From a virus, in the IMG/VR virus record IMGVR_UViG_3300026483_000720, positions 1 through 35,646 of that record: a DNA stretch of 35,646 nucleotides, one strand, 5' to 3'. The notes beneath the pieces were generated by a model. It was not told where the DNA came from. It saw nothing but the letters and a program-made list of their open reading frames with translations, and did not search any database. Both the position numbers and the translations under genes were made by a program. Below are positions 13,641-35,646 of this stretch, piece after piece (within the stretch, counting starts at the first letter, position 1; each line of letters begins with the position of its first letter).

Positions 13641-13641
13641 C

Positions 13642-14784: not shown

Positions 14785-14802
14785 CTATATAAAAATAAAA
14801 CT
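14785..14802 (+). promoter_or_regulatory. Late-promoter-like box before TMP-kinase-like gene
   Basis: The 18 bases between the two kinase genes read CTATATAAAAATAAAACT, matching the TATATAAAAATAAA box seen at 10395 and 13663. The upstream AACTTTTAA partly recalls the AAACCTTTT box. Confidence 0.35.
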
Positions 14803-15396: not shown

Positions 15397-15569
15397 TGTC
15401 AGCAGAAGATATACTTTACCAAGCACACTATGAAGGTATTAAAGAATTAGTTTTTGCAGAATCTAAAAGACTAAGATCAGAAAATCCTAAGAAATGGAAA
15501 TATGCAGAATACGGAGACGTAGTAGAACAAGCATACAAGAACGTAAAAGAAAAACAAAAAAAGAAATGA
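15396..15569 (+). CDS. Hypothetical protein, 57 aa
   Basis: A 57-codon ORF from ATG 15396, which overlaps the kinase stop by one base, to TGA at 15567-15569, which overlaps the synthase ATG at 15566. The product is helical and basic (EDILYQAHYEGIKELVF, then KWKYAEYGDVVEQAYKNVKEKQKKK). Junction overlaps on both sides argue strongly for a translated gene. I recognise no family. Its position between a kinase and a pyrimidine synthase suggests a small accessory factor of nucleotide metabolism, without other evidence. Confidence 0.7.
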   Translation: MSAEDILYQAHYEGIKELVFAESKRLRSENPKKWKYAEYGDVVEQAYKNVKEKQKKK

Positions 15570-16474
15570 GAGTTTATAACGGAGAAACATTTGCCGATGC
15601 ATACGAGCTAGCATTAAATGATATCTTACACAACCCCCAACATATTTCCTCTCCTAGGGGTATGAAAATATTTGAAGTATCTGATGCAGCATTAGTTATC
15701 GAAGATCCTACTTATTGTCTATATGAGAATTCTCGTAGGAGTAGTCAATTTAAATATATCGCAGCAGAGTTAGTATGGTATTTTACCGGTCGTAATGATG
15801 CTGATTTTATTACTCCTTATGCAAAATTCTGGGATCAGATTAAAAACAAAGATGGCTCAGTTAATTCTGCTTACGGTAATCTTATCTTTACTGAAAATTT
15901 AAAAGACGGTAGAAATCAATACCGATGGGCATTAGATTCCTTAATTCAGGATAAAGACTCAAGACAAGCAATCATACACTTTAATAAACCTACCCATCAG
16001 TGGAATGGTAATAAAGATTTTGTATGTACACTTAATGGTATATTTCAAATAAGAGATAATAAATTAAACTTTACTTTAGATATGAGATCTAATGATCTTA
16101 TACTAGGTACACCTACTGATGTTGCATTCTTTTGTTTACTACAAATTCAAATGTTAGAGCATTTAAGAAAATATTATCCAGAATTAGAATTAGGTACTTA
16201 TACTCATATTGCACATTCATTACATTTATATGAAAGGCATTTTAACTTAGTAGGTGAAATGTTACAAAAGTCATTTAATCCTCAGTCATTTCCAGATATG
16301 ACAGAATTCTTAATTGATCCAAATGGCAAAGCATTAGATGGTTTAAATCAATTAGAAGAAGAAATGCTTCAAATGAATGATTTAGTTTTTAAAGGTAATG
16401 CAAGCTACACTGTAGATAAACATGATGATCTTTTACATCAATGGATATCTGATGCAATCTTTGGAAATATATAA
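15566..16474 (+). CDS. Thymidylate synthase-family enzyme, probably dCMP-specific (hydroxymethylase/methylase type)
   Basis: A 302-residue member of the thymidylate synthase fold. I start it at ATG 15566 (MRVYNGETFADAY), because the open frame upstream is the 57-residue gene read out of frame. Family residues visible are ELVWYF (E68), FWDQ (W89), NSAYGNLIF, DSRQAI, the catalytic cysteine in DFVCT (C154), RSND (174-177) and SLHLYERH (H220, Y222). True ThyA has Asn where GTPTDVAFF places Asp (D185). Asp at this position marks dCMP enzymes such as T4 gp42, and the same Asn-to-Asp change turns L. casei TS toward dCMP. DFVCT and MRSND also echo gp42 (DFMCT, MRSND). I infer hydroxymethylation or methylation of dCMP for modified DNA. 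A relaxed TS remains possible. Confidence 0.75.
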   Translation: MRVYNGETFADAYELALNDILHNPQHISSPRGMKIFEVSDAALVIEDPTYCLYENSRRSSQFKYIAAELVWYFTGRNDADFITPYAKFWDQIKNKDGSVNSAYGNLIFTENLKDGRNQYRWALDSLIQDKDSRQAIIHFNKPTHQWNGNKDFVCTLNGIFQIRDNKLNFTLDMRSNDLILGTPTDVAFFCLLQIQMLEHLRKYYPELELGTYTHIAHSLHLYERHFNLVGEMLQKSFNPQSFPDMTEFLIDPNGKALDGLNQLEEEMLQMNDLVFKGNASYTVDKHDDLLHQWISDAIFGNI

Positions 16475-16491
16475 ACAAAATAAAATTTGTT

Positions 16492-18180: not shown

Positions 18181-18240
18181 TTAGAAAAAAGTTCCTTAAT
18201 AATTTTCAGTTCCCAACTAATTTGATTATATTTAAATTAT
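18181..18240 (+). promoter_or_regulatory. 60-base promoter-like repeat, copy B
   Basis: It begins TTAGAAAAAAG at the ATP-grasp stop, then ATTTTCAGTTCCCA (18202-18215) and TTTGATTATATTTA, and aligns without gaps to 9176-9235. It precedes the metallophosphoesterase and sigma factor genes by about 27 bases. Confidence 0.55.
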
Positions 18241-18266
18241 AACAGTTAATCTGTAAACAAAAAAAT

Positions 18267-18809
18267 ATGCTTAACGATTTAGAAAACTTAAAAGACTTTT
18301 TTATTACTTCTGATACATGGTTCGGAAGGCCTCAGATTTTACAAATAGCTAATCGTCTTCAATTTAATAACATTGAGGAGATGGATAAGCAATTAGTAAA
18401 AAATTGGAATAAAAAAATAAAAAAGAATGATATTGTTTTTCACCTAGGCAATTTTGCATGGGATCCTCAAACTGCCAGAAAAATTCTCAAAAAGCTAAAC
18501 GGTCAAATTTATTTTATGATTGGTAGTAATGATGAAGCGTTATTAGACGTCCAACATGAATTTGATAATTTATCTATAATAGAAGATCAACTCGTAGAGA
18601 TTCCACAATATGATTCTATACTTTGTCATTATCCATTAGAAGTATGGAATGGCAAAGATTCCGGTACTATTCATTTTCATGGTCATACTGTATTTTCACA
18701 TAAAACTGATTTAGTAAAAATGAATCGTATTAATGCATGTACAGATTTCTGGGGATTCGAACCAATTAAATTTTCAACCATCAAAGATTTTATAAATGAC
18801 AAAAATTAA
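18267..18809 (+). CDS. Calcineurin-like metallophosphoesterase homologue with degenerate metal site
   Basis: A 180-residue protein clearly built like small phage and bacterial metallophosphoesterases (EEMDKQLVKNWNKKIKKNDIVFHLGNF, ILKKLNGQIYFMIGSND), yet most metal ligands are changed. Motif I DxH reads DTW (D16, W18). Motif II GD reads GN (N62). Motif III GNH reads GSN (86-88). Motif IV keeps His (CHYP, H121). Motif V GHxH reads HGHTV (H140 kept, last His lost). Loss of five positions makes two-metal phosphatase chemistry unlikely, so a binding or regulatory role is possible. It is first behind repeat copy B and overlaps the sigma factor start by 14 bases, so the two are made together. Confidence 0.78.
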   Translation: MLNDLENLKDFFITSDTWFGRPQILQIANRLQFNNIEEMDKQLVKNWNKKIKKNDIVFHLGNFAWDPQTARKILKKLNGQIYFMIGSNDEALLDVQHEFDNLSIIEDQLVEIPQYDSILCHYPLEVWNGKDSGTIHFHGHTVFSHKTDLVKMNRINACTDFWGFEPIKFSTIKDFINDKN

Positions 18810-20885: not shown

Positions 20886-21173
20886 ATGGCAATTAAATCA
20901 TTTAAGGATTTTATAACAGAGGAGCTAAATCATGTAAGACATAAGAAAGTTAAGCATGTGGAAGATCATAATCCAGAAGATGGAAAGAATAAGGAAGCTG
21001 AGGTTAAAGCTGAAGAATATTTAGAAGACGTTAAAGAAGATTGCCCTAGATGCGGTGAGCATGTAAATGATTGCCAATGTGAAAAAGATGATCCTTGGTC
21101 AACTCAAAATTATCATAGAGTACCCAAAGGAGAAGAGGAAAAAGCAAAACCAAAACAAGAATTTAAAAAATAA
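20886..21173 (+). CDS. Small capsid-targeted protein with zinc-binding cysteines
   Basis: A 95-residue highly charged protein beginning MAIKSFKDFITE. As in the ATP-grasp protein and in T4 internal proteins, the leader follows the pattern F-x-x-F-I-x-E, suggesting scaffold-core packaging and cleavage after Glu12. The middle is rich in Lys, Glu and His. A zinc-knuckle-like cluster follows (CPRCGEHVNDCQC, about 53-65), and the C-terminus is basic. Size and charge resemble T4 internal proteins injected with DNA. Function in the host is unknown. The next gene starts four bases after its stop. Confidence 0.6.
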   Translation: MAIKSFKDFITEELNHVRHKKVKHVEDHNPEDGKNKEAEVKAEEYLEDVKEDCPRCGEHVNDCQCEKDDPWSTQNYHRVPKGEEEKAKPKQEFKK

Positions 21174-22861: not shown

Positions 22862-23563
22862 ATGCCAGCAAGAACATATGATGACGATGTCTTTCGTCAA
22901 AAAAGAGTTATCAAAAATCCAATTAAATTTAATATACAACTAAACGAGGAACAAAAAAGCGCAAAAGAACAAATACTACAAAATACAATAACAGTATTAT
23001 CAGGTAAAGCAGGGAGTGGTAAAACTCTATTAGCATGCCAAGTAGCATTAGATGGTCTTTTCAGAAGACACTATGAAAAAATCATAATAACACGACCAAC
23101 GGTATCAAAAGAAGAGATTGGATTTTTGCCTGGTGATTTACACCAAAAAATGGATCCTTGGGTTCAACCAATATATCAAAACATGTATACTTTATATGGT
23201 AAAGAACGTGTAGATCCTTTTATAAAAGATGGTAAAATAGAAATAGTACCAGTGGCTTTTATGAGAGGGAGAACATTTTTAGATAGTGTTGTTATTGTTG
23301 ATGAAGCACAAAATGTTACGATGAGCCAAATGGAAATGATTGCAACCAGAATAGGTTTAAGATCAAAAATGATTGTATGTGGAGATGACGGGCAAGTTGA
23401 TTTAAAAAATAGCAGAGATTCAGGTTTTAGATTTTTATACAAATTAGGAAAAAAGATAAAGAACTTTGTTTCTATTACATTATTTGAAAATCATAGGGAT
23501 CCTATTGTAGATGATCTTATTGAAGCATATGAAGAGTTCTATGATAAGAGAAAGAATAAATAA
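22862..23563 (+). CDS. phoH: PhoH-family ATPase
   Basis: A 233-residue PhoH-like P-loop ATPase. Walker A is LSGKAGSGKTLLA (G48 to T55), and Walker B is VVIVDEAQNVT (D147, E148). The conserved segments IITRPTVSKEEIGFLPGDLHQKMDPWVQPIYQNM are cut here for length but cover about residues 75-108 and are diagnostic. MIVCGDDGQVDL (about 170-181) and a C-terminal arginine motif (FENHRDP) follow. PhoH is an RNA-related ATPase/helicase-like family, widespread in marine and other phages, and its role in infection is unresolved. The start ATG at 22862 follows 35 bases of AT-rich DNA. The endolysin gene begins 17 bases downstream. Confidence 0.92.
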   Translation: MPARTYDDDVFRQKRVIKNPIKFNIQLNEEQKSAKEQILQNTITVLSGKAGSGKTLLACQVALDGLFRRHYEKIIITRPTVSKEEIGFLPGDLHQKMDPWVQPIYQNMYTLYGKERVDPFIKDGKIEIVPVAFMRGRTFLDSVVIVDEAQNVTMSQMEMIATRIGLRSKMIVCGDDGQVDLKNSRDSGFRFLYKLGKKIKNFVSITLFENHRDPIVDDLIEAYEEFYDKRKNK

Positions 23564-25236: not shown

Positions 25237-25257
25237 CTTACTTCTCATAACATTTAG

Positions 25258-25285
25258 AAAAGGGAGAAGAAATTCTCCCTTTTTT
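25258..25285 (+). terminator. Rho-independent terminator with GAAA tetraloop
   Basis: An 11-bp stem AAAAGGGAGAA (25258-25268) pairs with TTCTCCCTTTT (25273-25283) around a GAAA tetraloop, followed by Ts. It separates the phage core from the glycan island. Confidence 0.92.
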
Positions 25286-25317
25286 AGTATGAATAAATAA
25301 CAAAATAACTTATCTCA

Positions 25318-26766
25318 GTGCGTAAAAGAAGAATACCTAAAATTTTAATAAACCCTAATACTGTTGACAAGGCACCACAGAATAGGAGGACGATAAGACC
25401 TTTAAGGTCTAGGGAGACTCCTAGAAGTAAAGACTTGTTATTTCCTGCTACATTAAATAAATTTTACAAGCCTTACGTAGAAAGGAATAGAGTTTTTATA
25501 ATTGGTGGCGGTCCTTCCGTTAAAGGTATGAACTTAGATTTATTAAAAGATGAGGATACTATTTGTGTTAATGCTTCCATAAATAATGTAATTAACCCTA
25601 CATATTTCATAACAATGGATTATAGTTATTTTGATCCAAGAAGAAATATTAATACAGTAAGCCAAGTAACAGAGAAAGCTAAGTATAGTTATTTTATTGT
25701 TAATACCGGTAATGCTTATATAAAAACAATTAATGGGGAAGTAATAGATACAAGAACTAACACCGTATATAGAGAGCTAAATAAATTTTCTGGGATTGTT
25801 TATTCAAATCATGAAAAAATACCTACAGGGTTTTCATTAGATGAAAATAAATTTGTGCATGGTAACAATAGTGGATTTTGCGCCATACAGCTAGCAATCT
25901 TATTAGGATATAAAGAAATATATCTAATAGGATTTGATTTAAGCGTAACTCAAAAACATCAACACTATCATACTAAATACGGTAACACATCAAACATTAA
26001 AAATCTGATAGAAAGCTATAAAGAATCTTTATTAGATGCAATAAGTAGCTATAAAAAAACATCAGCAAAATTTAAGTCTGTTTTAAGTACTTTAACCCCA
26101 TCTCCATTAGAATCATTAATAAAAAGTAGCAAACTAAATAATATTCTAAAAAAGACTGCTGTTCTAAATAATAAAAAACCTTATATTATTGTTTCTTACT
26201 ATACAGTTAATACTCCGTATGAAAAAGAAGCAGCAAAACTTAAATCATCTTTAGATAAATTAAAAATACCTTATGATATTGTTGGTGTAAAAAACTTAGG
26301 GGATTGGCAAGCTAATACTAGATTTAAGGCTAAGTTTATGGGCCAAATGTTAGATAAGCATATAGGTAAGAGTATTGTTTGGGTGGACAGTGATGCTATC
26401 ATTCATTCATATCCTAAATTATTTGACAATTATAATTACGACATTGCTGTAAGATGGCAAGATTTTAGGTGGAGAAAAAATGAGTGTTTAAGTGGTACTA
26501 TTTATATGGCAAATAATTCTCATATGAGAGATTTATGTAAAAGGTGGGAAGGGGAAAATATAGCAGAAGGGCCTAATGCAAAAACATTTGAGCAATGGAA
26601 TTTAGGAAAGTCTATTATTGAAATGAGAACTGAAGGAAAGATTAAAGATGGTAATCTTCCACCAGAATATACCATGATTTTTGATAGTATGAGGGCCATG
26701 TATCCAGATGTTAAACCTATCATAGAGCATTTTCAAGCAAGCAGAAAATTAAAAAATAAATTGTAA
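25318..26766 (+). CDS. Fusion of DUF115/MptE-like domain with GT-A glycosyltransferase
   Basis: A 482-residue two-domain protein. Residues about 55-215 resemble the DUF115/MptE-like fold found in glycan and flagellin-glycosylation loci: VFIIGGGPSVKG (58-69), TICVNASINN, YFITMDYSYFDP and EIYLIGFDLSVT. Residues about 275-480 are a GT-A-type glycosyltransferase with IIVSYYTVNTPYEKEAA, a DxD-type SIVWVDSDAIIHSYP and GTIYMANNS, the layout of nucleotide-diphospho-sugar transferases. The start is GTG 25318, chosen because the basic leader (RKRRIPKILINPN) is in frame and no ATG lies before the first domain. It is the first gene of the glycan island, right after a terminator. The TAA overlaps the next ATG by one base. 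Confidence 0.7.
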   Translation: MRKRRIPKILINPNTVDKAPQNRRTIRPLRSRETPRSKDLLFPATLNKFYKPYVERNRVFIIGGGPSVKGMNLDLLKDEDTICVNASINNVINPTYFITMDYSYFDPRRNINTVSQVTEKAKYSYFIVNTGNAYIKTINGEVIDTRTNTVYRELNKFSGIVYSNHEKIPTGFSLDENKFVHGNNSGFCAIQLAILLGYKEIYLIGFDLSVTQKHQHYHTKYGNTSNIKNLIESYKESLLDAISSYKKTSAKFKSVLSTLTPSPLESLIKSSKLNNILKKTAVLNNKKPYIIVSYYTVNTPYEKEAAKLKSSLDKLKIPYDIVGVKNLGDWQANTRFKAKFMGQMLDKHIGKSIVWVDSDAIIHSYPKLFDNYNYDIAVRWQDFRWRKNECLSGTIYMANNSHMRDLCKRWEGENIAEGPNAKTFEQWNLGKSIIEMRTEGKIKDGNLPPEYTMIFDSMRAMYPDVKPIIEHFQASRKLKNKL

Positions 26767-27422
26767 TGAGTATCCAAGATAATGATCAATTAATAATATT
26801 CACTAAAGTTTTTGATGAAGAGAAATGGTCTAATCATCAACAAGAGTCTGTGTCAGGTACTGGTTCTACTTTAAGTAATACTGAAACTCTTAGATTAGAA
26901 TTGCCTAAAATTTGCAAAAAATATGGAATTGAAAATATAGTAGATATTGCATGCGGTGATTTTAATTGGATGAAAGAGATCGTAGATCAATTTAAATTAT
27001 ACCGTGGTGTTGATATTGTAGATGATTTAATAAAGTCAAATAAAGATAAGTATGAAAAGAAAAATCATATAGAATTTATTAAAGCCGATGTTATTAATGA
27101 TTTTTCCAAATGTATAGAAGGTAGAAATTTTGATGCTATTATTCTTAAAGATGTTTTAGTACATTTTCCAAATGAATATGTATCAAAGGTTTTAGAATCT
27201 TTACATAAATCATCTATAAGATATGTTTTTATTACTCATTTTAATTCTATTGAGGTAAATATTGATATTGAAGAGTTTAATGGTTGGAGACCGCAAAATT
27301 TTATATTATCACCTTGGAGAATGGATAAACCATTAGAATGCATTGCATCCCCAACGGAAAAATATAAATGGGGAGATGATTATATTGCTGACAAAACATT
27401 ATCTCTCTGGCAACTAAAATAA
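26766..27422 (+). CDS. Class I SAM-dependent methyltransferase
   Basis: A 218-residue methyltransferase of the Rossmann type. Motif I is IVDIACGDFNWMKEI (about 58-72), motif II is YRGVDIVDDLI, then FIKADVIND (about 100-108) and FDAIILKDVLVHFP (about 119-132). The tail has PWRMDKPLE and a final LSLWQLK strand. The substrate cannot be named, but the surrounding transferases suggest a sugar or glycan. It starts at TAATG, overlapping the DUF115-GT fusion stop by one base. Confidence 0.78.
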   Translation: MSIQDNDQLIIFTKVFDEEKWSNHQQESVSGTGSTLSNTETLRLELPKICKKYGIENIVDIACGDFNWMKEIVDQFKLYRGVDIVDDLIKSNKDKYEKKNHIEFIKADVINDFSKCIEGRNFDAIILKDVLVHFPNEYVSKVLESLHKSSIRYVFITHFNSIEVNIDIEEFNGWRPQNFILSPWRMDKPLECIASPTEKYKWGDDYIADKTLSLWQLK

Positions 27423-27429
27423 TAATAAT

Positions 27430-28122
27430 ATGATAAATAATTACTTTGATAAAATAATTTGTATAAATTTAGATAAAAGAAAAGATAGGTTAGAAGAATC
27501 CTGGAAACAATGGAGTGCTAATAATCTTATCGTAGAAAGAATGTCAGCAGTAGAAGGAAATCCTATGGGATGGAAACATGTAACTGAAAGAGATGCAGGT
27601 ATTAATGCAATTAGGCGAGCTTCTTGGAACGGCGCAGCAGGGTGTATGGCAAGTCATGTAAATATTTGGAAAAGAGCAAAGGCAGAAGGCTGGAAGAATG
27701 TTTTAGTAGTTGAAGATGATTGTGATTTTGTACCAGAATTACATAATAAGTTTAGTAAATTAATAAAGGAAGTTCCTGCTGATTGGGATATGTTGTATTT
27801 TGGAGGAATTCATGAAGATCGTGGGGGAAGATTCATTCCAGAAAAAATTAGTGAAAATGTAGTAAAGTGTGCAAGAATGATTACCACTACATGTTATGCT
27901 ATTAATGAAAGTTGTTATGATTTAGCAATAAATTCTGTTCTTGCTGAAGAGCCTTGGTTTTATACTGCAGTTGATGGTTATTTAGCAGCAGTTGTTCAAC
28001 CTAAGTGTAATGCTTATGCTTTCAATCCACCTCTTGCTTGGCAGAGAGGAAGTCACAGTGACATTCAAGATGGGTTTAGAGATTATAGTACAAGAATGAA
28101 AGTAAAATATAATGCTAAATGA
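27430..28122 (+). CDS. Glycosyltransferase family 25 (LPS-type)
   Basis: A 230-residue GT25 enzyme, the family of LPS beta-galactosyltransferases such as LpsA/Lob1. It shows the opening IICINLDKRKDRLEESWKQW (about 9-28), VERMSAVEG, the conserved GAAGCMASHVNIWKRAKAEG (about 69-88) and the metal motif VLVVEDDCDFVPE (about 92-104). The C-terminal half has YFGGIHED, CYAINES and WFYTAVDGYLA. It would add a hexose to an oligosaccharide acceptor. ATGA overlap links it to the fucosyltransferase that follows. Confidence 0.88.
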   Translation: MINNYFDKIICINLDKRKDRLEESWKQWSANNLIVERMSAVEGNPMGWKHVTERDAGINAIRRASWNGAAGCMASHVNIWKRAKAEGWKNVLVVEDDCDFVPELHNKFSKLIKEVPADWDMLYFGGIHEDRGGRFIPEKISENVVKCARMITTTCYAINESCYDLAINSVLAEEPWFYTAVDGYLAAVVQPKCNAYAFNPPLAWQRGSHSDIQDGFRDYSTRMKVKYNAK

Positions 28123-28898
28123 TAACTTGTAGACTAAAAGGTGGGTTAGGTAATATGATGTTTCAAACTTCTTTTATACAATATGAAGGTTTTATGGGAA
28201 ATCTTAAAACAGGGTATTGGAATATTGATCAAAATCTACAGCACCTAAATAATGATAAAGTACATAATCCTAAATTAAATCATGCTACTGATTATTTAAA
28301 AATTTTTAAAAATTTTAATTGGCCTAAGATAGAAAAACCACCAACTAATAGAAAAGCTGTACCTTTCCACTATGAATCTTTTAAAGTTACAGATGATACT
28401 TTATATGATGGTTTTTTTCAATCAGAAAAATACTTTCCAAATAAAACTCTAATTTTAAATTTATTTGAGCCTAGTGAATTTACAAATCATCAATTAATAA
28501 AATATGATAATCTATTAAAAGGCGTAACTTGTAGCATTCATATAAGAAGAGGTGATTACTTAAATTATGGTTTACACGCAGTAAGAGACATGGATTATTA
28601 CCAAAAAGGAATGGACTGTGTAGGTGAGGTAGATAGGTATTTAATTTTTAGTGATGATTTAGATTGGTGTAAGAAAAATTTTATTGGAGATAAGTTTGTA
28701 TTTATTGATAATGAAAAAGATTATGTAGAAATGTTTTTACAATCTAAATGTACACATAATATAATTTCAAGTTCTTCATTTTCTTGGTGGGGTGCTTATT
28801 TAAATAAAAATGCAAATAAAAAAGTAATAGGCCCTGCTCAATGGTTTACTTCAGTAAGAGGCAATAATATAATACCCGAAAGATGGCAAACTATTTAG
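28119..28898 (+). CDS. Glycosyltransferase family 11, alpha-1,2-fucosyltransferase-like
   Basis: A 259-residue GT11 enzyme that transfers fucose (or a related deoxy sugar) from a GDP-sugar. It shows the N-terminal RLKGGLGNMMFQ (5-16), GFFQSEKYFPN, the GDP-binding SIHIRRGDYLNYG (about 141-153), YLIFSDDLDWCKKNF, and the terminal NIISSSSFSWWGAYLN (about 218-233), all family hallmarks. A four-base ATGA overlap couples it to the GT25 gene. With the GT10-like gene next to it, the island could build a difucosylated glycan. Confidence 0.92.
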   Translation: MITCRLKGGLGNMMFQTSFIQYEGFMGNLKTGYWNIDQNLQHLNNDKVHNPKLNHATDYLKIFKNFNWPKIEKPPTNRKAVPFHYESFKVTDDTLYDGFFQSEKYFPNKTLILNLFEPSEFTNHQLIKYDNLLKGVTCSIHIRRGDYLNYGLHAVRDMDYYQKGMDCVGEVDRYLIFSDDLDWCKKNFIGDKFVFIDNEKDYVEMFLQSKCTHNIISSSSFSWWGAYLNKNANKKVIGPAQWFTSVRGNNIIPERWQTI

Positions 28899-29764
28899 CA
28901 AAAAATTCAAGATATTGGTTAATGGTAAATTTACCTTTTCCTTCTGTTTTAGTTCGTAGGCAATATCAGCCTCAGCAAGTTCAAAATCTAAGAAACACTA
29001 ATCCTGGCGCAAAAATATTCTTTATACATTTTGAAGAACCGTTAAGAAATAGTAAACCTTCAGCAGATGTTATACGTGATGCTCATTTATTTGATCTTAT
29101 TTTTACCACTGATAGAAATATTGTTAATGCAGTTCCTCATGCACATTGGTCTCCTTTAGCAGAATGTTGGACAAATGGTAGTATGACATGCCATAGCAAA
29201 ATTGATAGAACTCATGAAGTTACAGAAAAAGAATTCAGTGTAAGTTTTAATAGTACATCTAAAATGTATCGAGGTGGCCCTTATGCTATAAGAAAGGATA
29301 TTTGGGAAGCTTCAGATAAAATTAATATTCCTATAAAATTCTTTGATAGTAATGAAAGCCCTACGTCTGCATTTGGTACAACCAAAAAATTCCCATTACT
29401 TCCACAAGGTAAACAGTTTGAAATCAGTGATAAGATTATTTTATATAAATCTATGTTTAACATATGTCCTGAAAATAATGATGATGAAAATTTTAGCCAA
29501 AGATTAATAGATTGCTTTATTAATAAAACTATACCTATTTATAAAGGTTACAAAAACATTCATGAACATTTTAATAGAGAAGGGATGATTATAGTAAAAG
29601 ATGGTGAGGATGCTATTAATAAAATTAATCAACTAACACCTGATTATTATAATAAAAGATTAGGAGCTATAGAAGATAATTATAAAAGATGTTTACTAAA
29701 CCAATATCATTTATCACCAGGGGATAGGATATCTAATAAAATTAAAAAAATATACGGAGTATGA
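28883..29764 (+). CDS. GT10-like fucosyltransferase
   Basis: A 293-residue protein whose C-terminal half fits the GT10 (alpha-1,3-fucosyltransferase) signature: YKSMFNICPENNDDENFSQR (about 190-209), a variant of the family's F-x-x-x-x-E-N-S, then LIDCFINKTIPIYKGYKNIHEHF, the equivalent of the TEKl.dal..gtvPVY.G stretch. The N-terminal half has a short Rossmann-like region (GAKIFFIHFEEPLRN, DLIFTTDRNIVNAVPHAHW). The usual TEK triplet is replaced by SQR, so donor use may differ. It overlaps the GT11 gene by 16 bases. Confidence 0.62.
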   Translation: MANYLAKNSRYWLMVNLPFPSVLVRRQYQPQQVQNLRNTNPGAKIFFIHFEEPLRNSKPSADVIRDAHLFDLIFTTDRNIVNAVPHAHWSPLAECWTNGSMTCHSKIDRTHEVTEKEFSVSFNSTSKMYRGGPYAIRKDIWEASDKINIPIKFFDSNESPTSAFGTTKKFPLLPQGKQFEISDKIILYKSMFNICPENNDDENFSQRLIDCFINKTIPIYKGYKNIHEHFNREGMIIVKDGEDAINKINQLTPDYYNKRLGAIEDNYKRCLLNQYHLSPGDRISNKIKKIYGV

Positions 29765-30369
29765 ATGAAGTAGCAAAGTTCTTAGCCGAAAAGGGCGACT
29801 ATACCCTTAGGTTAAATTATAACTTAGATAAAGATTCTATAGTTATAGATGCAGGTGGTTATAAAGGTTGGTTTGCCGAAAACATATATAACAAATATAA
29901 ATGCAATGTTTATGTATTTGAGCCTGTAAAAGAATATTATGATTTAATAGTAAATAAATTTAAAGGTAATTCAAAGATAAAAGTTTTTCATTATGGATTA
30001 GGTGGATTGACTCAATCTCTTAAAATAAACTTACAGGGTGATGGAACCTCTGTGCATACTACAAACGGTAAATTTACCGGCACAGAATTAATAAAAGTTG
30101 TAAATATTTTAGATTGTTTAAATGAATTAAAATTAGAAAAGGTAGATTTACTAAAGCTAAATATAGAAGGGGAAGAATATTCATTACTTGAAGCTGTAAT
30201 TAAAAATAATGAACTAAAAAGATTTTCTGATATTCAAATACAATTTCATAATTTTATTGATAAGGCAGAAGAAAGAAGAGATAGTATAAGAAAGACCCTT
30301 AGTAAAGATTTTACTTTAGAGTATGACTTTAAATTTGTATGGGAAGGTTGGAAAAAAATAATTAAATAA
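29761..30369 (+). CDS. FkbM-family methyltransferase
   Basis: A 202-residue FkbM-type SAM methyltransferase. Motif I is VIDAGGYKGWFAENI (about 28-42), VYVFEPVKEYYDLIVNKF (about 50-67) is the family's FEP box, and VDLLKLNIEGEEYSLLEA (about 131-148) matches the conserved D-x-x-K-x-x-x-E-G-x-E. FkbM enzymes O-methylate sugars and polyketides. Here methylation of a glycan is likely. It begins in an ATGA overlap with the GT10-like gene. The N-terminal FLAE only coincidentally resembles a capsid-targeting leader. Confidence 0.87.
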   Translation: MNEVAKFLAEKGDYTLRLNYNLDKDSIVIDAGGYKGWFAENIYNKYKCNVYVFEPVKEYYDLIVNKFKGNSKIKVFHYGLGGLTQSLKINLQGDGTSVHTTNGKFTGTELIKVVNILDCLNELKLEKVDLLKLNIEGEEYSLLEAVIKNNELKRFSDIQIQFHNFIDKAEERRDSIRKTLSKDFTLEYDFKFVWEGWKKIIK

Positions 30370-30370
30370 T

Positions 30371-30982
30371 ATGGAAAGATATGATGTCATACAAACAATA
30401 ATTAATAAAACTAAAGCCGAGTATTATTTAGAAATAGGTGCAGGTGGCGGTATTAATTTTAATGAAATTAAATGTAATAAAAAGTTTTTAGTAGAACCTT
30501 TTCCAAAGCTATTATCTGGCCTTGAAGATAAAGTAAAAATAACTCATAAGCTTACTTCTGATGATTTCTTTAAACAAAATAAAGAAACCTTTGATGTTAT
30601 CTTTCTTGATGGTTTACACACAGCAGATCAAATAAGTAAAGATATTATTAATTCTTTAGATGTATTAAATGAAGGAGGTTATATTATTTGTCATGATATG
30701 AATCCAACATCTGAATTGATGCAAAGAAATCCACCTTTAAATTTAAATATGCCGTGGACTGGAGATGTTTGGAAATCATTTGTAAAATTAAAATCTAACA
30801 GAAAAGATCTAAGCATGTTTGTGGTAGATGCATGCTTTGGTTGTGGTGTTATAAGTAAAGGAAACCAAAAATTATTAAAAATTAAAGAAGAATTAACTTA
30901 TGAACTATTAGAAAAAAATAGAAAAGAGTTATTGGATCTTCTTTCAGTAGATGAATTTCTCAGTCGCATAAATAAAAAATAA
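30371..30982 (+). CDS. Class I methyltransferase (Methyltransf_24 type)
   Basis: A 203-residue Rossmann methyltransferase. Motif I is YYLEIGAGGGINFNEI (about 17-32), then LVEPFPKL, the acidic FDVIFLDGLHTADQISKDI (about 75-93) with the DGLH signature of this family, and GGYIICHDMNP (about 104-114), where the Asp/His residues recall the metal-dependent members. The C-terminal part is WTGDVWKSFVKL. The third methyltransferase of the island. It starts one base after the FkbM stop. Sugar O-methylation is the likeliest role. Confidence 0.8.
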   Translation: MERYDVIQTIINKTKAEYYLEIGAGGGINFNEIKCNKKFLVEPFPKLLSGLEDKVKITHKLTSDDFFKQNKETFDVIFLDGLHTADQISKDIINSLDVLNEGGYIICHDMNPTSELMQRNPPLNLNMPWTGDVWKSFVKLKSNRKDLSMFVVDACFGCGVISKGNQKLLKIKEELTYELLEKNRKELLDLLSVDEFLSRINKK

Positions 30983-30985
30983 ATT

Positions 30986-31402
30986 ATGGAAAAAATATAT
31001 TCAAAAGTAGATCCTACAAAGCTATTACATATAGTACAAAGATTGGATAAAATAACAGAACCTAGAGTTGATTTAATACCAGAAGAACATTTCATTCAAT
31101 GCTCTACTTTAAAAATGGAAAATGGTAAAACATTTAAACCACATAAACATATTTGGAAAAATAGAACTAGAGATGTTATTGCACAAGAATCATGGATTGT
31201 AATAAAAGGTAAAGTTAAATGTATTTTTTATGATATTGATGATCAAATTATAGCAACTCCTATATTAAATCCAGGTGATGCTTCTTTTACCTTAGAAGGT
31301 GGTCATACATATGAAATATTAGAAGATGATACTTTAGTGTACGAATATAAAACTGGGCCTTATGAAGGGCAAAAATTAGACAAGACTTTTTTAGATGAAT
31401 AA
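30986..31402 (+). CDS. Cupin-fold protein (WbuC-like)
   Basis: A 138-residue cupin-barrel protein. The metal motif reads FKPHKHIWKNRTRDVIAQESWIV (about 45-67; H48, H50 and a later Glu), followed by the second strand set with IKGKVKCIFYDIDDQ, LNPGDASF and EGGHTYEIL (H113). Small cupins of this type (WbuC and relatives) occur in O-antigen loci with unclear function; others are sugar epimerases or isomerases such as FdtA. The last eight bases overlap the next start. Isomerase versus binding protein cannot be decided. Confidence 0.7.
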   Translation: MEKIYSKVDPTKLLHIVQRLDKITEPRVDLIPEEHFIQCSTLKMENGKTFKPHKHIWKNRTRDVIAQESWIVIKGKVKCIFYDIDDQIIATPILNPGDASFTLEGGHTYEILEDDTLVYEYKTGPYEGQKLDKTFLDE

Positions 31403-32339
31403 TTTTTATAATATATCACCAACATGTTATGGGTGGGGTTACGGATATGGATTCTTTTCAAATTATAGAATGTGTTTGGAGCAAATCATAATACATCATA
31501 AAAATAAAGAGAAGACAGTACCTTATATTGATTGGAGTAAAACAACTTTTGTTGATGGTTTTAATCCTTTTGCCGATTCTTCATATAATGGTGTTGGTAG
31601 GCATGGATCTAATGTAATTATACCTAAAGGAAATCCTTTTGATTTATGGTTTGATCAACCAATACCGCAAGATAATGATAAAATTGATTATTGGAAAGGT
31701 ACAGATATCATGTCTGTAATTGATCACGGTAAACATTATTATAATGAACCATCTAAATTAAAAGAACAACAACATATTGATGAACTTTACATAAAGCCTA
31801 AAAAACATATACTAAATAAGATTAATGAAATATATGAAAAGGAATTTAAGGATCATGTAGTACTAGGTGTAATGGCCAGAGGCTGTGAATATAATAGTAA
31901 AGATTATAAGAATAATATTGATGCAGACCATCCAGTGTTCGGGCAATTTTTAGTAAAAGATTATATAAAAGGTATAAAGAAAATCCTTAAAGAAAATCCT
32001 GATATAACTAAACTATTTTTTGCAAGTGAAGAACAAGAATATGTAAATGAATTAAGTAAAGAATTTCCTAATTCTTATTTTATGAAAGATGTATTTAGAA
32101 GAACAGATGAATCTATGGATTACATAACAAAATATATGTGTTGGCCTAATATATCAGCTAAAAGAAATAATCAATGTAAATTGTTAGGAGAAGAAACAAT
32201 TATTCAAACTAAGCTTTTAGGTATGAGTAATTATTTTTATGGTAGATTATCAGGTATATTTACAGGGACTATGTTATGGGGCAAAGAATTTAATAAAGTT
32301 TATAAAACATGTTCAACTAATGGAAGCAAAGAAATATAA
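31395..32339 (+). CDS. NodZ/GT23-like putative fucosyltransferase (1)
   Basis: A 314-residue protein resembling GT-B fucosyltransferases of the NodZ/GT23/O-FucT group. The opening PTCYGWGYGYGFFSNYRMCLEQII (about 9-32) is the glycine-rich loop. VLGVMARGCEYNSKDY (about 156-171) stands where others have H-x-R-R-G-D, here with the acidic residue changed. ITKLFFASEEQEYVNEL is the ATDD-like GDP-binding stretch, and the last helices contain QTKLLGMSNYFYG. A related but distinct pair lies downstream. Fucosyltransfer is an inference from fold and neighbourhood. It overlaps the cupin gene by eight bases. Confidence 0.58.
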   Translation: MNNFYNISPTCYGWGYGYGFFSNYRMCLEQIIIHHKNKEKTVPYIDWSKTTFVDGFNPFADSSYNGVGRHGSNVIIPKGNPFDLWFDQPIPQDNDKIDYWKGTDIMSVIDHGKHYYNEPSKLKEQQHIDELYIKPKKHILNKINEIYEKEFKDHVVLGVMARGCEYNSKDYKNNIDADHPVFGQFLVKDYIKGIKKILKENPDITKLFFASEEQEYVNELSKEFPNSYFMKDVFRRTDESMDYITKYMCWPNISAKRNNQCKLLGEETIIQTKLLGMSNYFYGRLSGIFTGTMLWGKEFNKVYKTCSTNGSKEI

Positions 32340-33159
32340 ATTAGAGTTTATTAAAATAGCACCTTCTTTTGAATTCGCAGGGGTTGGTTTTGCAGGTAAT
32401 GTGTTTATCACTCTTAATGCATTAACTTATATTAATGATTCCGATAGAATGTATGTGGATATGGAAACTAATGAATGCTGCTGTACTGAAAAGGATTCAT
32501 TTTTACATGACACTTATAATTCATGGGAATATTATTTTGATCAAATATCAATAAATGAAAAGGATGATTTAAAATATATGAATAGTAAAACCAGACCGAA
32601 CATTCATTATGACATACAAAAAGATTTTTTAAATCCTAATAATTACATAGACTTAAAAAATAAATTCTTTAATAACTTTAAAATTAAAGATTATCTAAAA
32701 TCAGAAATAGATGATTTTTATAAAACTAACATTAAAGATAAACCAACATTAGGAGTACAGATAAGACTAACTGATTACAGTGCTCTTTTAGGATCTAACC
32801 CTAAAGTTAATAAATTTGCTGATAAGATTAATTCCATTTTAAAAGAAAATTCTGATATTAAACAAGTATTTTTAGCTACAGATGATCACAGAGCGATTAA
32901 AGAATTACAATCTCTTATAAGTGTTCCTGTTATTTATTGGCCTAATATGTTTAGAGCTGATGATGAAAATTTACATTCTACTCCTTATGAAAGATTTACT
33001 GCTGACCGAGAAAATCATAGGTATAAGTTAGGAACAGAGTGTATGAAAGAAATATTTACATTAACCAAGTGTAAGTATTTTTTAAAGGCTCATAAATCAT
33101 CTGTCTCTATAGTAGCTACTATTTTATCAGAAAACATACAAAAGATTTACGGAGTATGA
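32320..33159 (+). CDS. NodZ/GT23-like putative fucosyltransferase (2)
   Basis: I start at ATG 32320 (MEAKKYKLEFIKIAPSF). The frame is open from 32239, but that part is the preceding gene read out of frame and the paralogue at 33835 begins at the same point. About 279 residues: SFEFAGVGFAGNVFITLNAL (Gly-rich loop), YVDMETNECCCTE (cysteine cluster, shared with the paralogue), TLGVQIRLTDYSALLG (the RRGD-type site), IKQVFLATDDHRAIKEL, YERFTADRENHRYKLG and KYFLKAHKSSVSIVA. It is a clear paralogue of 33835-34668, with an SGNH gene between them. It overlaps the upstream gene by 20 bases. Confidence 0.6.
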   Translation: MEAKKYKLEFIKIAPSFEFAGVGFAGNVFITLNALTYINDSDRMYVDMETNECCCTEKDSFLHDTYNSWEYYFDQISINEKDDLKYMNSKTRPNIHYDIQKDFLNPNNYIDLKNKFFNNFKIKDYLKSEIDDFYKTNIKDKPTLGVQIRLTDYSALLGSNPKVNKFADKINSILKENSDIKQVFLATDDHRAIKELQSLISVPVIYWPNMFRADDENLHSTPYERFTADRENHRYKLGTECMKEIFTLTKCKYFLKAHKSSVSIVATILSENIQKIYGV

Positions 33160-33842
33160 TATATGTAATAGGAGATAGTCATTCAAGTTTATTCAACGGT
33201 TATGATGGTAAGAAAGGTCATTTTATTCAGCCTCAGTATGGATATTGTTATAAAATACAAAACGGTAAGTTTATAATTCTTAATCAACCACATAATCCTT
33301 TTTTACAAAACGATCCTAATTTTACAGCGATAAGGACTGGTCCTAATACAGCATATAACATGATAACAAAAACTGGAATGGTGGATGAAATTATTAAAGA
33401 ATATAAGATATGCAAAGAAAAGGATTATATTTTATTTGTATATGGCGAAATTGATACGCGTATGCATATAGGTAAACAAGAAGAATTAGGAAGAAATGTT
33501 AGAGGTGTTATAAATGAAATTACAGATCGCTATTTTAATTTTGTAAAAAAATACAAGAATGAAGGATATAATGTTTTGGTATGGGGTGTACCTCCTAGTG
33601 GCATTAGTGACAATAAAGCTCATCATTTGTATAATTCACCAAAGAAAAGAAATGTATTATCTAAGCTAATGAATGAGCAGTTTAATAATAGGTGCGAAGC
33701 TTTAGACATTAACTTTATAAGTATATGGGATAATATAGTTAGTGAAGGCGATTATTATCATTATTTCCAAGATGCCATTCATTTAAGTTATGTTGCATGT
33801 AAAGACTTAATTAATCAAAAACTAAAATCTTACTATGAATAA
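33156..33842 (+). CDS. SGNH/GDSL-family hydrolase-like protein
   Basis: A 228-residue SGNH-fold esterase. Block I is MIYVIGDSHSSLF (nucleophile Ser in GDSH, about residue 8), block III is LFVYGEIDTRMH (GEID in place of GxND), and block V is FQDAIHLSYVACKDL (Asp-x-x-His). Such enzymes add or remove acyl groups on carbohydrates. In a glycan cluster it would acetylate or deacetylate a sugar. The Asn of the oxyanion hole seems changed to Ile or Glu. It is joined by ATGA overlaps to both flanking NodZ-like paralogues, so it may have been inserted between duplicates. Confidence 0.72.
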   Translation: MIYVIGDSHSSLFNGYDGKKGHFIQPQYGYCYKIQNGKFIILNQPHNPFLQNDPNFTAIRTGPNTAYNMITKTGMVDEIIKEYKICKEKDYILFVYGEIDTRMHIGKQEELGRNVRGVINEITDRYFNFVKKYKNEGYNVLVWGVPPSGISDNKAHHLYNSPKKRNVLSKLMNEQFNNRCEALDINFISIWDNIVSEGDYYHYFQDAIHLSYVACKDLINQKLKSYYE

Positions 33843-34668
33843 GATTATACAATTTCATAAGATAGGCCAGTCTCATAGATTTGCTGGAGCAGGCTTTGGT
33901 AGTAATATAACAATTGCTCTTAATATTATTAACAACTTATCAACGGATGATACTGTTTACATAGATATGGAAACTGTACCTTGTGTATGCACAGAAGAAA
34001 ATTTTAACAAATTTAATACTTCTAATTGTTGGGAATATTATTATGATCAAATATCTTTACCTAAAGGTGCCGAGATTATAAGTAGTTTAAAAACAGACTT
34101 TGATAAACCTAACTTTGATTATAGAGATGTTAACCTATCTGATTATTCTAACTTACAATACAAATTTAATAAATCATTTAAACTTAAAGATTATATTAAA
34201 GAAGAATTAGATCTTTATTATAATAATGTATTAAAAGGAAAACAAACTTTAGGTGTTCATATAAGATTAACTGATATGGCTCATCATAATAATCGCTATT
34301 ACAATAATAAAAACCCTTTGGATAGTTACATTAATAAAATTAAATCTATCTTATCAGAAAACCCTAATATAAATCAAATCTTTATTGCAACTGATGATAG
34401 CAAAGTATTACCTATAATAGAAAAAAGTTTTAATATACCAGTAGTTTATCATAACCTTTATCGTGCCACTAACGAAAGGAATCATATTGATCCTTATGAG
34501 AGATATGAAGATGATAGAAAATTTCATAAATATTATATGGGTTTAGAATGTATTAAAGAAATTTACACTTTAAGTAAATGTAATTACTTTTTAAAAGCAC
34601 CAGTATCTGCCATTTCAAATACTGCTGTTTATTTAAGTACTTCAATTAATAAGCTATACAAATTATAA
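33835..34668 (+). CDS. NodZ/GT23-like putative fucosyltransferase (3)
   Basis: A 277-residue paralogue of the gene two upstream. Shared blocks in the same order are SHRFAGAGFGSNITIALNII, TVYIDMETVPCVCTEE, NCWEYYYDQIS, TLGVHIRLTDMAHHNN, INQIFIATDDSKVLPII, YERYEDDRKFHKYYMGLEC and NYFLKAPVSAISNTAVYL. The IRLTD box replaces the HxRRGD box of canonical GT11/GT23 enzymes. It would act with its paralogue on the same glycan, with different linkage or acceptor. It starts in an eight-base overlap with the SGNH gene. Confidence 0.6.
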   Translation: MNKIIQFHKIGQSHRFAGAGFGSNITIALNIINNLSTDDTVYIDMETVPCVCTEENFNKFNTSNCWEYYYDQISLPKGAEIISSLKTDFDKPNFDYRDVNLSDYSNLQYKFNKSFKLKDYIKEELDLYYNNVLKGKQTLGVHIRLTDMAHHNNRYYNNKNPLDSYINKIKSILSENPNINQIFIATDDSKVLPIIEKSFNIPVVYHNLYRATNERNHIDPYERYEDDRKFHKYYMGLECIKEIYTLSKCNYFLKAPVSAISNTAVYLSTSINKLYKL

Positions 34669-34699
34669 ACAAAATATAGTTAGAGCCATATAATTAATA

Positions 34700-35131
34700 A
34701 TGGATAAAAAAATAATATTTAGAAAAGTTGAAAGAAAAGATTTAGATAAAGTCTTTCCTTTATTACAGCAATTAACAAAGATAGATTATTCTTCTAGGGA
34801 TAAATCAGAATGTTGGGATTCATTTATTTCTAATACTTCTTCTAACTCAATTGTAGGTATATATGATAATGAAATTGTTGCTTACGGTGCAGTTGTAATA
34901 GAAAGTAAAATTAGAGGGGAATCTGCTGGCCACATTGAAGATATAGTTGTTGATAATAAAGTAAGAGGAAAAAGAATAGGTGTTGATCTTATTAAAGAAT
35001 TGGTTAAAATTGCAAAAGAAAAACGATGTTACAGAGTAACTTTATTTTGTGATGAGTCTCTGGTTAATTTTTATGATAAGAATGGTTTTGAGGTAAGTGG
35101 TACTGCTATGAAAGTTCATTTAGTTAATTAA
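34700..35131 (+). CDS. GNAT acetyltransferase, glucosamine-phosphate N-acetyltransferase (GNA1)-like
   Basis: A 143-residue GNAT enzyme resembling GNA1, which makes N-acetylglucosamine-6-phosphate on the way to UDP-GlcNAc. Visible: IIFRKVERKDLDKVFPLLQQL (about 4-24), GESAGHIEDIVVDNKVRGKRIGV (about 73-95, with the R/Q-x-x-G-x-A/G acetyl-CoA loop) and CYRVTLFCDESLVNFYDKNGF (about 112-132), the last being the strand-helix that binds glucosamine phosphate. An N-acetylated amino sugar (UDP-GlcNAc or a relative) fits with the aminotransferase that follows. There is a 31-base gap from the NodZ-like gene and 35 bases to the next start. Confidence 0.78.
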   Translation: MDKKIIFRKVERKDLDKVFPLLQQLTKIDYSSRDKSECWDSFISNTSSNSIVGIYDNEIVAYGAVVIESKIRGESAGHIEDIVVDNKVRGKRIGVDLIKELVKIAKEKRCYRVTLFCDESLVNFYDKNGFEVSGTAMKVHLVN

Positions 35132-35145
35132 ATTTACTATAATAT

Positions 35146-35163
35146 ATAATAAAATAAAAATAG
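35146..35163 (+). promoter_or_regulatory. Late-promoter-like box before aminotransferase gene
   Basis: ATATATAATAAAATAAA lies just before the ATG at 35167. Similar to the boxes at 2421, 14785 and 24978. Weak alone. Confidence 0.3.
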
Positions 35164-35166
35164 TAT

Positions 35167-35646
35167 ATGAGTTTTGAAAATGTAACAAAATTAGAAGAAA
35201 GGCTTGCAGAATTTTTTGGAGCACCGTATGCAGTCTGCTTAGATGCATGTACACACGGAATTGAATTATGTTTAAGATTACAAAACATTGGAACAATTAC
35301 AGTACCAAAAAGAACTTATATATCTGTTCCTTTCTTGGCTAATAAATTAAATATTAATTTAGAGTGGAGAGATGAAGAGTGGCAAGATTATTATAAAGTT
35401 AATGAACATTTCAAACCTATTTATGATGCAGCAGTATTATGGAAAAAAGATAGTTACATCCCAGGATCATTTATGTGTTTAAGTTTTCAATTCCAAAAAC
35501 ATTTATCTTTAGGAAGAGGCGGTGCTATTCTTTGTGATACTAAAGAAGATGCAATTGCTTTAAAGAAAATGTCATATGATGGAAGAATTCCTAATATACC
35601 GTGGAGAGATCAAGATATAGAAACATATGGGTATCATTATTATATG
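35167..35646 (+). CDS. DegT/DnrJ/EryC1-type sugar aminotransferase (3' partial)
   Basis: 160 codons run from ATG 35167 to the window end without a stop, so the C-terminal half is missing. This is the N-terminal part of a PLP-dependent aminotransferase that converts nucleotide 4- or 3-keto sugars to amino sugars. Visible features are EERLAEFFGAPYAVCLDACTHGIEL (about 9-33, PLP phosphate loop with CTHGIEL), ITVPKRTYISVPFLA, FKPIYDAAVLW (the Asp that binds the PLP nitrogen) and FMCLSFQFQKHLSLGRGGAILCD (about 102-124), with the PLP lysine in QKHL followed by the Gly-Gly-Ala motif. Its presence points to amino-deoxy sugars such as QuiNAc or Fuc3NAc derivatives. More glycan genes probably lie beyond the window. 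Confidence 0.85.
   Translation, partial: MSFENVTKLEERLAEFFGAPYAVCLDACTHGIELCLRLQNIGTITVPKRTYISVPFLANKLNINLEWRDEEWQDYYKVNEHFKPIYDAAVLWKKDSYIPGSFMCLSFQFQKHLSLGRGGAILCDTKEDAIALKKMSYDGRIPNIPWRDQDIETYGYHYYM

Follow-up and report, generated by a model that had tools for sequence, protein, structure and literature searches.

Introduction

Clusters of lipopolysaccharide (LPS) genes have been described in the T4-like cyanophages P-SSM2, S-SSM7 and S-SM2 (PMC3037559, PMC2984593), for which a role as filler DNA has been raised (PMC3037559). Another T4-like cyanophage, S-SCSM1, encodes an O-fucosyltransferase, an alpha-1,2-fucosyltransferase, NodZ, five glycosyltransferases, GDP-mannose 4,6-dehydratase (GMD) and GDP-fucose synthase (PMC9602691). 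Publications on this group already cover LPS clusters near phoH as well as a set rich in fucosyltransferases. Further afield, a dehydratase-aminotransferase-acetyltransferase trio of mimivirus yields acetylated viosamine (PMC4691112). Phage-borne clusters of the LPS type are long known, but their function has yet to be demonstrated.

Here we analyse a glycan gene island at the end of a viral contig of 35,646 nucleotides (the window). The phage is uncultured and T4-like, and its hosts are probably Flavobacteria. Its island is a fresh variant of the LPS-type cassettes already known in marine phages, and relatives hold different versions at the same spot. Several close relatives share one site, with flanks conserved and contents exchanged, which allows a direct comparison.

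Results

A tightly packed island behind a terminator

From position 25318 to the contig end at 35646 the window is filled by 14 consecutive genes, head-to-tail on the + strand, as judged from open reading frame calls and their junctions; 13 are complete and the last is cut by the contig end. Eight of the 13 junctions overlap (ATGA or TAATG type), three leave 1-7 b between the genes, and intervals of 31 and 35 b precede the last two genes. Reading frames of at least 130 aa number 13 on the + strand and 0 on the other, and none arose in 100 base shuffles. The features are as follows.

25256..25287 (about), + strand: Rho-independent terminator, separating the island from the Hsp20 and 75-aa genes
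25293..25299, + strand: ATAAATA, T4-late-promoter-like motif (weak evidence)
25318..26766, + strand: g1, two-domain glycosyltransferase, N-terminal part CMP-sugar (sialyl/Kdo) transferase-like, C-terminal part GT-A fold
26766..27422, + strand: g2, SAM methyltransferase (Methyltransf_25, E 1e-8; PHROG 3382, E 7e-39)
27430..28122, + strand: g3, GT25 glycosyltransferase of LPS/LOS type (Pfam, E 4e-12)
28119..28898, + strand: g4, GT11, alpha-1,2-fucosyltransferase family (Pfam, E 2.6e-23)
28883..29764, + strand: g5, GT10-like, alpha-1,3-fucosyltransferase family (profile match)
29761..30369, + strand: g6, FkbM-family O-methyltransferase (Pfam, E 5e-11; NCBIfam above cut-off)
30371..30982, + strand: g7, Methyltransf_24 methyltransferase (Pfam, E 2e-10)
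30986..31402, + strand: g8, WbuC-like cupin (TIGR04366, 40.3 bits, just under the cut-off of 42)
31395..32339, + strand: g9, NodZ/GT23-like glycosyltransferase (profile against NodZ, E 2.6e-5)
32320..33159, + strand: g10, NodZ/GT23-like glycosyltransferase (profile against NodZ/FUT8, E 7e-4)
33156..33842, + strand: g11, SGNH hydrolase-like, esterase or acyltransferase (GDSH...DxxH motifs)
33835..34668, + strand: g12, NodZ/GT23-like glycosyltransferase (Pfam NodZ, E 2e-6)
34700..35131, + strand: g13, GNAT acetyltransferase (Pfam, E 8e-15)
35167..35646, + strand: g14, half-size DegT-type PLP sugar aminotransferase, cut by the contig end (Pfam, E 6.5e-11)

The island thus holds seven glycosyltransferases, one of them two-domain and five resembling the fucosyltransferase families GT10, GT11 and GT23, together with three methyltransferases, the cupin, the SGNH hydrolase, the GNAT acetyltransferase and the aminotransferase. 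A preliminary description, made from the sequence alone, had read the segment as at least fourteen consecutive glycan genes of these kinds, six or more of them transferases, with stop/start overlaps through most of it and a strong terminator in front; all of this is borne out by the family matches, the junctions and the hairpin below. Its gene reading is amended in two places: g1 is a two-domain transferase and the last gene is truncated.

Three genes (g5, g9 and g11) gave empty single-sequence family searches, and homologue profiles or alignments were needed. On its own g5 has no Pfam match, and its profile of seven homologues matches the H. pylori alpha-1,3-fucosyltransferase at E 6e-13. The curated Pfam NodZ cut-off of 28.3 bits is not reached by g12 (27.5) or g10 (16.3), and the NodZ/GT23 homology of g9, g10 and g12 was found by profile (E 2.6e-5 to 7e-4), with g9 related to g10/g12 at 99.8% in hhalign. 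The start of g10 was placed at 32320, where the alignment begins, rather than at 32239. Without a Pfam match, g11 was assigned from its GDSH and DxxH motifs, invariant in 10/10 homologues. The cupin was also considered as an FdtA/QdtA-type ketoisomerase; it matches no such family.

For g1, PHROG 4603 is matched at E 3.5e-19, an MptE-like Pfam family below its cut-off, the WaaZ Kdo transferase at E 3e-6 (also below cut-off) and the Cst sialyltransferase at E 0.004. The predicted structure of its C-terminal domain best matches the GT-A enzyme PBCV-1 A64R (E 6e-7), a generic GT-A fold; the model is only moderate (pLDDT 72) and this match is used lightly. The sub-threshold WaaZ match, together with the Kds genes of relatives, weakly suggests a Kdo role for g1. 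No membrane segments were predicted in any island protein.

The terminator reads AAAAGGGAGAA-GAAA-TTCTCCCTTTTTT and forms a hairpin of -18.3 kcal/mol with T6. A consensus scan for terminators did not pick it up; a hairpin of identical type lies upstream of the same gene in the relatives L002, L003, L004 and L005. ATAAATA stands at the matching position in the window, L002, L003 (as the full TATAAATA) and L005, is absent in L004, and also occurs 5' of the amidase gene and a tape-measure-like gene in several relatives. The late-promoter-like motif is not enriched across the window overall, where TATAAATA is under-represented, and a second motif, TATATAAnAATAAA, precedes structural and replication genes alike. 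For these reasons we dropped a late assignment of the island and claim no expression class.

Conserved flanks and exchanged contents

Upstream of the island the window carries sheath, tube, type II topoisomerase, PhoH and amidase genes. The nearest isolate match of the lineage is Flavobacterium phage immuto (PhoH 57% identical); a search of phage isolates at the DNA level gave no match. The order Hsp20, 75-aa gene, g1 is kept in L002-L006, L018 and L020, and other viral contigs that share the left junction have a g1 42-60% identical to that of the window. In G003, G005 and G006, where the whole island is present, the same phage genes resume on the right. Judged by this synteny, the island truly belongs to the phage, as an exchangeable set of glycan-assembly genes in a constant position, bounded by Hsp20 and the 75-aa gene on the left and by a Zn-ribbon/ClpA-like-protease gene block on the right.

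The contents of the site are swapped between relatives. G003 retains g1, the methyltransferase and GT25, followed by different genes and KdsD and KdsB. The first gene is common to all close relatives at the site, and g3 is 55-84% identical among them. A framework of GT11-cupin-...-acetyltransferase-mini-DegT-GMD recurs, each member in 26-30 loci of a sample collected by similarity to GT11; in that sample GT11 of the g4 type occurs in 28 cassette loci, and the cupin is the most constant member (65-93% identity in 30 loci). Before the DegT gene, the GNAT family is found also in L003, whereas most other loci have an acetyltransferase of the hexapeptide type there.

In relatives GMD lies directly 3' of DegT, and it opens the missing right end in most related loci. 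It is present at GMD-level scores in 19/29 records; the nearest NCBIfam model is gmd (382.7 bits; cut-off 415). In close relatives GMD is followed by genes of the Kdo pathway toward CMP-Kdo, a KdsB above its cut-off and a KdsD-like gene. For the cut contig itself, from which GMD is absent, we infer GMD and the Kds genes from these relatives. The cupin-mini-DegT-GMD set also exists on bacterial contigs, and in Prochlorococcus L106 mini-DegT lies between a formyltransferase and GMD. The half-size DegT family is found as well in bacteria such as Neomarinimicrobia.

A half-size aminotransferase and the donor sugar

The GDP-perosamine pathway, as in the O-antigens of Caulobacter and Brucella, comprises GMD, PerA/RfbE and an N-acyltransferase. 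Full-length homologues of g14 have 195-239 aa (about 200 aa) and lack the C-terminal domain; they fall short of the usual two-domain DegT fold, which spans about 370 aa (target-normalised TM about 0.4). The PLP lysine K111 and D87 are invariant in 25 DegT homologues and align with perosamine synthase, and the best match of the family profile is GDP-perosamine synthase (E 3e-12). A model of the L018 homologue (pLDDT 90) has perosamine synthases among its best fold matches (TM 0.66-0.68). Because the C-terminal domain is missing, aminotransferase activity of this half-size protein is uncertain. The family would either show the minimal fold for a sugar aminotransferase or represent a new enzyme type.

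GDP-fucose synthase was not found in the window, and the second SDRs of L048 and L024, beside GMD, score far below the NF047922 cut-off. With neither of the two SDRs checked being that enzyme, we rejected GDP-fucose as a phage-made donor, and the label 'fucose' is unproven; the real donor for the five fucosyltransferase-like enzymes may be host GDP-fucose. The preliminary description had asked whether genes for GDP-fucose or for dTDP/UDP sugars lie beyond the window: relatives place GMD next, and Kdo-pathway genes after it in close ones, and the GDP-fucose part did not hold in the SDRs checked. Its term 'self-contained' has to be given up, since nucleotide-sugar genes of relatives lie beyond the contig end and genes for lipid carrier, export and ligation were not found. 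PF02397, PF01943 and PF04932 (initiating transferase, flippase, polymerase/ligase) occur in 0/24 records, with control genomes positive; these records are fragments, and such genes may sit elsewhere or in other families.

Discussion

We propose a model in which cytoplasmic enzymes make the activated sugars. From families and gene order, GMD would convert GDP-mannose to GDP-4-keto-6-deoxymannose, the half-size DegT would aminate this, giving a perosamine-like sugar for acylation by the GNAT or hexapeptide enzyme, while KdsD and KdsB, in close relatives, would raise CMP-Kdo. A short chain could then be assembled by g1 and GT25 together with the GDP-sugar transferases (GT10, GT11 and GT23), and decorated by the methyltransferases and the SGNH enzyme. 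Bacterium, phage particle and phage DNA are all candidates for the coated target, and host LPS core is most likely, to judge by the gene families. Kdo-type and GT25 enzymes usually act on the LPS/LOS core at the inner membrane; this, and the failure to find carrier, flippase, polymerase or ligase genes, make that core the likeliest acceptor. Export would use the host's own machinery, and the infected cell surface would be altered, for example against competing phages. The preliminary description had named virion fibres and the host surface as possible sites of action, and the sequence suits either. As a whole, the reading of a swappable phage cassette for a glycan of Kdo and a 6-deoxy-amino sugar, assembled in the cytoplasm and most likely placed on host LPS core, is the one we favour, tentatively and at somewhat short of even chances.

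A close rival is glycosylation of the virion, in which an O-linked, methylated oligosaccharide, added in the cytoplasm to capsid, tail or fibre proteins, would give the particle a changeable coat. The island enzymes are all soluble and lipid-carrier machinery was not found, a solubility that suits a virion target and a DNA target to the same degree. Mycobacteriophages are known to glycosylate their virions (Freeman et al. 2023, as cited in PMC12619734), and for their particle glycans chloroviruses and mimivirus use similar virus-encoded sets, with GMD or with a dehydratase, an aminotransferase and an acetyltransferase (PMC4691112). The A64R match of g1 points the same way, though the fold is generic, and the terminator and ATAAATA 5' of g1 hint at a unit of its own that may be expressed late. 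However, that promoter-like motif is a weak signal, and the Kdo-pathway genes, WaaZ-like domain and GT25 are all of LPS type; we consider a virion target less likely than host LPS core, but a serious contender. A more specific form, a phage 'serotype locus' in which the half-size DegT makes a new N-acylated 4-amino-6-deoxy sugar that joins Kdo in a variable, methylated virion glycan, has in our estimate a small chance; if true, related phages would differ in particle coat as bacteria do in O-antigen.

Hypermodification of DNA, in which the phage would make 5-hydroxymethylcytosine and build sugars on it against host restriction, is a weaker rival, and we rate it as improbable. A candidate route is there: the gene at 15494-16474, which Pfam labels a thymidylate synthase, matches dCMP/CMP hydroxymethylases (E 2e-21 to 3e-23) better than thymidylate synthases (3e-12), carries the diagnostic Asp and is common to relatives. 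Phage glycosyltransferases that hypermodify 5hmC are also reported (Pyle et al. 2024, as cited in PMC12619734). Yet G018 (144 kb) and G024 (205 kb), both incomplete records, have the cassette or the GT11/GMD genes belonging to it and no thymidylate-synthase-family gene; cyanomyoviruses, some with LPS clusters, give no sign of hmC (PMC2984593); and Kdo, FkbM and SGNH genes would be unusual for DNA sugars.

That the island is functionless filler for headful packaging fits the free variation of contents among relatives, but its frames are intact and tightly packed, the cupin is strongly conserved and catalytic residues are invariant across distant phages, which makes filler very improbable. Host DNA joined in assembly near 25290, the alternative named in the preliminary description, might be read from the slightly more A+T-rich island (GC 28% vs 32% in the rest of the window) and from the similar bacterial sets, but is ruled out by synteny on both flanks: the left junction recurs in other viral contigs, and beyond the right end of the island three relatives return to a shared set of phage genes.

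The island can be compared with several described systems. Immuto (MW353175, 49-60 kb), the nearest cultured relative, has a glycan cluster too, with glycosyltransferases, two WecE-type aminotransferase genes (one half-size), an epimerase and a methyltransferase. It lies in another genomic place with other genes, and among the proteins tested the half-size DegT alone is shared (32% identity). Chloroviruses and mimivirus likewise encode nucleotide-sugar synthesis, transferases and methyltransferases; these are eukaryotic viruses with demonstrated particle glycans. In relatives, a gene with GMD-level scores lies beside a perosamine-synthase-like DegT, with an N-acyltransferase-type gene nearby, which resembles the GDP-perosamine pathway, but the DegT of that pathway has 366-391 aa. 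This sugar-synthesis core (cupin, half-size DegT, GMD, acyltransferase) is common to phage loci and bacterial contigs and, with the conserved-flank comparison, yields concrete predictions of the sugar made and of which of three acceptors bears it.

Closest are the cyanophages. As with P-SSM2, to whose LPS genes the preliminary description rightly compared the island, and with S-SSM7 and S-SM2, the window belongs to a T4-like myovirus genome rich in genes for glycosyltransferases and nucleotide sugars: the window has seven transferases, GMD is seen in relatives only, amid phage genes that in relatives lie on both sides. The P-SSM2 cluster is near phoH, and here PhoH (22862-23563) is 1.8 kb upstream of g1; the lineage is another one, and the window's cupin, half-size DegT and NodZ-like proteins are unmatched in those phages. 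The wealth of fucosyltransferase-family enzymes, earlier thought notable, has a precedent in S-SCSM1 (PMC9602691), which shares GMD and a fucosyltransferase-type set with this group, the window's GMD being known from relatives alone. In S-SCSM1, GDP-fucose synthase adjoins GMD; in its place the window's group, whose two examined SDRs beside GMD are not that enzyme, has a half-size DegT and an acetyltransferase.

Results

The island (25318-35646) is filled by 14 genes on the + strand whose ends mostly overlap, a run with no counterpart on the opposite strand or in shuffled sequence, and a strong terminator lies ahead of it (about 25256-25287, -18.3 kcal/mol). Family and profile comparisons bore out every enzyme class listed in the preliminary description and added refinements. 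The N-terminal part of g1, the first gene, resembles CMP-sugar transferases (PHROG 'alpha-2,3-sialyltransferase', E 3.5e-19), with weak matches to the WaaZ Kdo transferase (E 3e-6) and a Campylobacter-type alpha-2,3-sialyltransferase (E 0.004), and its C-terminal part is a GT-A fold. The fifth gene is GT10-like (profile against H. pylori alpha-1,3-fucosyltransferase, E 6e-13); g9, g10 and g12 form one NodZ/FUT8-related family, each alone falling under the Pfam cut-off, and g11 has SGNH motifs. Membrane segments were found in none of the island proteins, and initiating transferase, flippase and polymerase/ligase families were absent from 24 records, with control genomes positive.

The island is phage DNA. 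A misjoin to host DNA near 25290, the refutation envisaged in the preliminary description, is contradicted by both the left junction and the right flank, which recur in other contigs. The order 75-aa gene, terminator, g1 is repeated in four contigs from other metagenomes (L002, L003, L004, L005), and PhoH, Hsp20, the 75-aa gene and g1 keep their order in three more (L006, L018, L020). In the three relatives whose right end can be reached the same genes then resume: first one for a Zn-ribbon protein (about 85 aa), next those for proteins of 179-235 and 82 aa and, some way beyond, one for a ClpA-like protease. Between these flanks L018 has an island of 11.4 kb (7175-18628), and that of G003 spans about 9 kb. 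G003 is among the closest relatives by Hsp20 (92%) and is the closest by GT25 (84%). The G003 island begins with g1, a methyltransferase and GT25 and continues with very different genes, including KdsD and KdsB (the latter above the NCBIfam cut-off), and has no GT11, cupin, DegT or GMD. The site is thus fixed and its contents are exchanged between relatives.

A framework of GT11, cupin, variable transferases and methyltransferases, a hexapeptide acetyltransferase, half-size DegT and GMD recurs among 29 viral loci, gathered mainly through GT11 similarity and biased accordingly. Counting the window for families it holds, cupin occurs in 30 loci, GT11 in 28, DegT and GMD in 27 each and the acetyltransferase in 26. 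GMD directly follows DegT in L003, L018 and L040, and KdsD-like and/or KdsB genes come next in close relatives. Neither of the two GMD-adjacent SDR genes checked in other relatives is a GDP-fucose synthase. Another related record, G005, carries the same KdsD-like gene and has a sulfotransferase-domain protein inside its island. It also has a second glycan locus, where a KdsA/KdsB-like pair lies with FkbM and GT10-like genes near a gene that by sequence is APS-kinase-like. The sulfotransferase and the second locus together suggest a sulfated, Kdo-containing glycan.

Sulfotransferase/second-locus entries of G005
L129 11286-12563, - strand
L128 1251-2581, - strand

Homologues of the half-size DegT are mostly 195-239 aa long, with invariant PLP-lysine and aspartate motifs, and the best solved relative of their profile is GDP-perosamine synthase (E 3e-12, in two separated blocks). 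The model of the L018 protein (pLDDT 90) matches perosamine synthases and other sugar transaminases at a query TM of 0.66-0.68 and a target TM of about 0.4; as modelled, the half-size DegT is the large domain without the C-terminal domain. Cupin, half-size DegT and GMD also lie close together on bacterial single-cell or metagenome contigs, DegT being directly 5' of GMD in 10 of 25 cupin loci, including loci of Prochlorococcus and Neomarinimicrobia. In Prochlorococcus L106 a formyltransferase gene immediately precedes DegT, as expected of an amino-sugar pathway. The bacterial set is a possible amino-sugar module, of which we found no description; a viral origin is possible for some of the contigs, L112 for example.

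Contigs with cupin, half-size DegT and GMD
Prochlorococcus: L105, L106, L116, L124
Neomarinimicrobia: L117, L119, L121

The IMG/VR record, 35,646 bases in all, is a fragment, as no ends were identified. Genes for a tail sheath (Phage_sheath_1C) and a tail-tube protein were identified, together with those for a DexA-like exonuclease, nucleotide kinases, a sigma factor and both type II topoisomerase subunits (named from sequence), and for PhoH, Hsp20 and a peptidoglycan amidase; no tRNAs were found in the window. None of 50,697 phage records gave a near DNA match. The best isolate match of PhoH is Flavobacterium phage immuto (57%), and the host is likely among the Flavobacteria. In immuto (L100, L101), the nearest cultured phage, a glycan cluster of its own sits at a different position and includes a half-size DegT annotated WecE; the phage also has a short gene annotated LptF.

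An AT motif, TATATAAnAATAAA, recurs upstream of several functional classes of genes, is kept in relatives and is possibly a promoter of this phage lineage.

Intergenic TATATAAnAATAAA motifs across the window (examples)
upstream of 2456
upstream of 10417
upstream of 14803
upstream of 35167

Many proteins of the lineage open with MKxxKxFxxFIxE (8 N-terminal matches observed against about 1 expected, among ATG-started ORFs of family contigs), a start that resembles the propeptide by which T4 internal proteins are targeted to the capsid. Those listed, among them an ATP-grasp enzyme, are candidates for packaging in the head.

Proteins with the MKxxKxFxxFIxE start
window 16492-18180, ATP-grasp enzyme, TTG start
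window 20886-21173
L130 8528-9322
L132 5021-9429

Discussion

We propose a model where a GDP-activated 6-deoxy-4-amino sugar would be synthesised in the cytoplasm, CMP-Kdo would also be used, and a short methylated chain would be assembled. The acceptor is most likely the LPS/LOS core of the host, since Kdo-type and GT25 enzymes work on that core and the host's own export would be enough; virion proteins are almost as plausible. DNA comes third: the protein of 15494-16474 resembles dCMP hydroxymethylase, but such a gene is missing from two large records that carry the cassette or its core genes. The family annotation of that protein is thymidylate synthase, but it is nearer T4 dCMP hydroxymethylase and MilA (E 2e-21 to T4 gp42), with Asp at the Asn position of thymidylate synthase, and the phage DNA may contain 5-hydroxymethylcytosine. 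Two relatives (G003, G006) additionally have a canonical thymidylate synthase.

Phage glycan clusters are already known as a kind. Cyanophages P-SSM2, S-SSM7 and S-SM2 carry LPS clusters of unknown function, that of P-SSM2 near phoH (PMC3037559, PMC2984593), and S-SCSM1 has a set rich in fucosyltransferases with GMD and GDP-fucose synthase (PMC9602691). Phage records with GT11 relatives number 101, and 83 of these bear the name of a Synechococcus phage; identity does not exceed about 34% among the matches listed. GMD relatives occur in 244. The cupin is found in a single phage record, a metagenomic huge phage, the half-size DegT in seven, including immuto and S-SCSM2R, and g9 and g12 in none. 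We found no description of the present modular variant in the open-licence literature. Set beside these systems, the island is a real, well-organised phage glycan cassette, whose swapping site, half-size DegT and Kdo genes are worth following.
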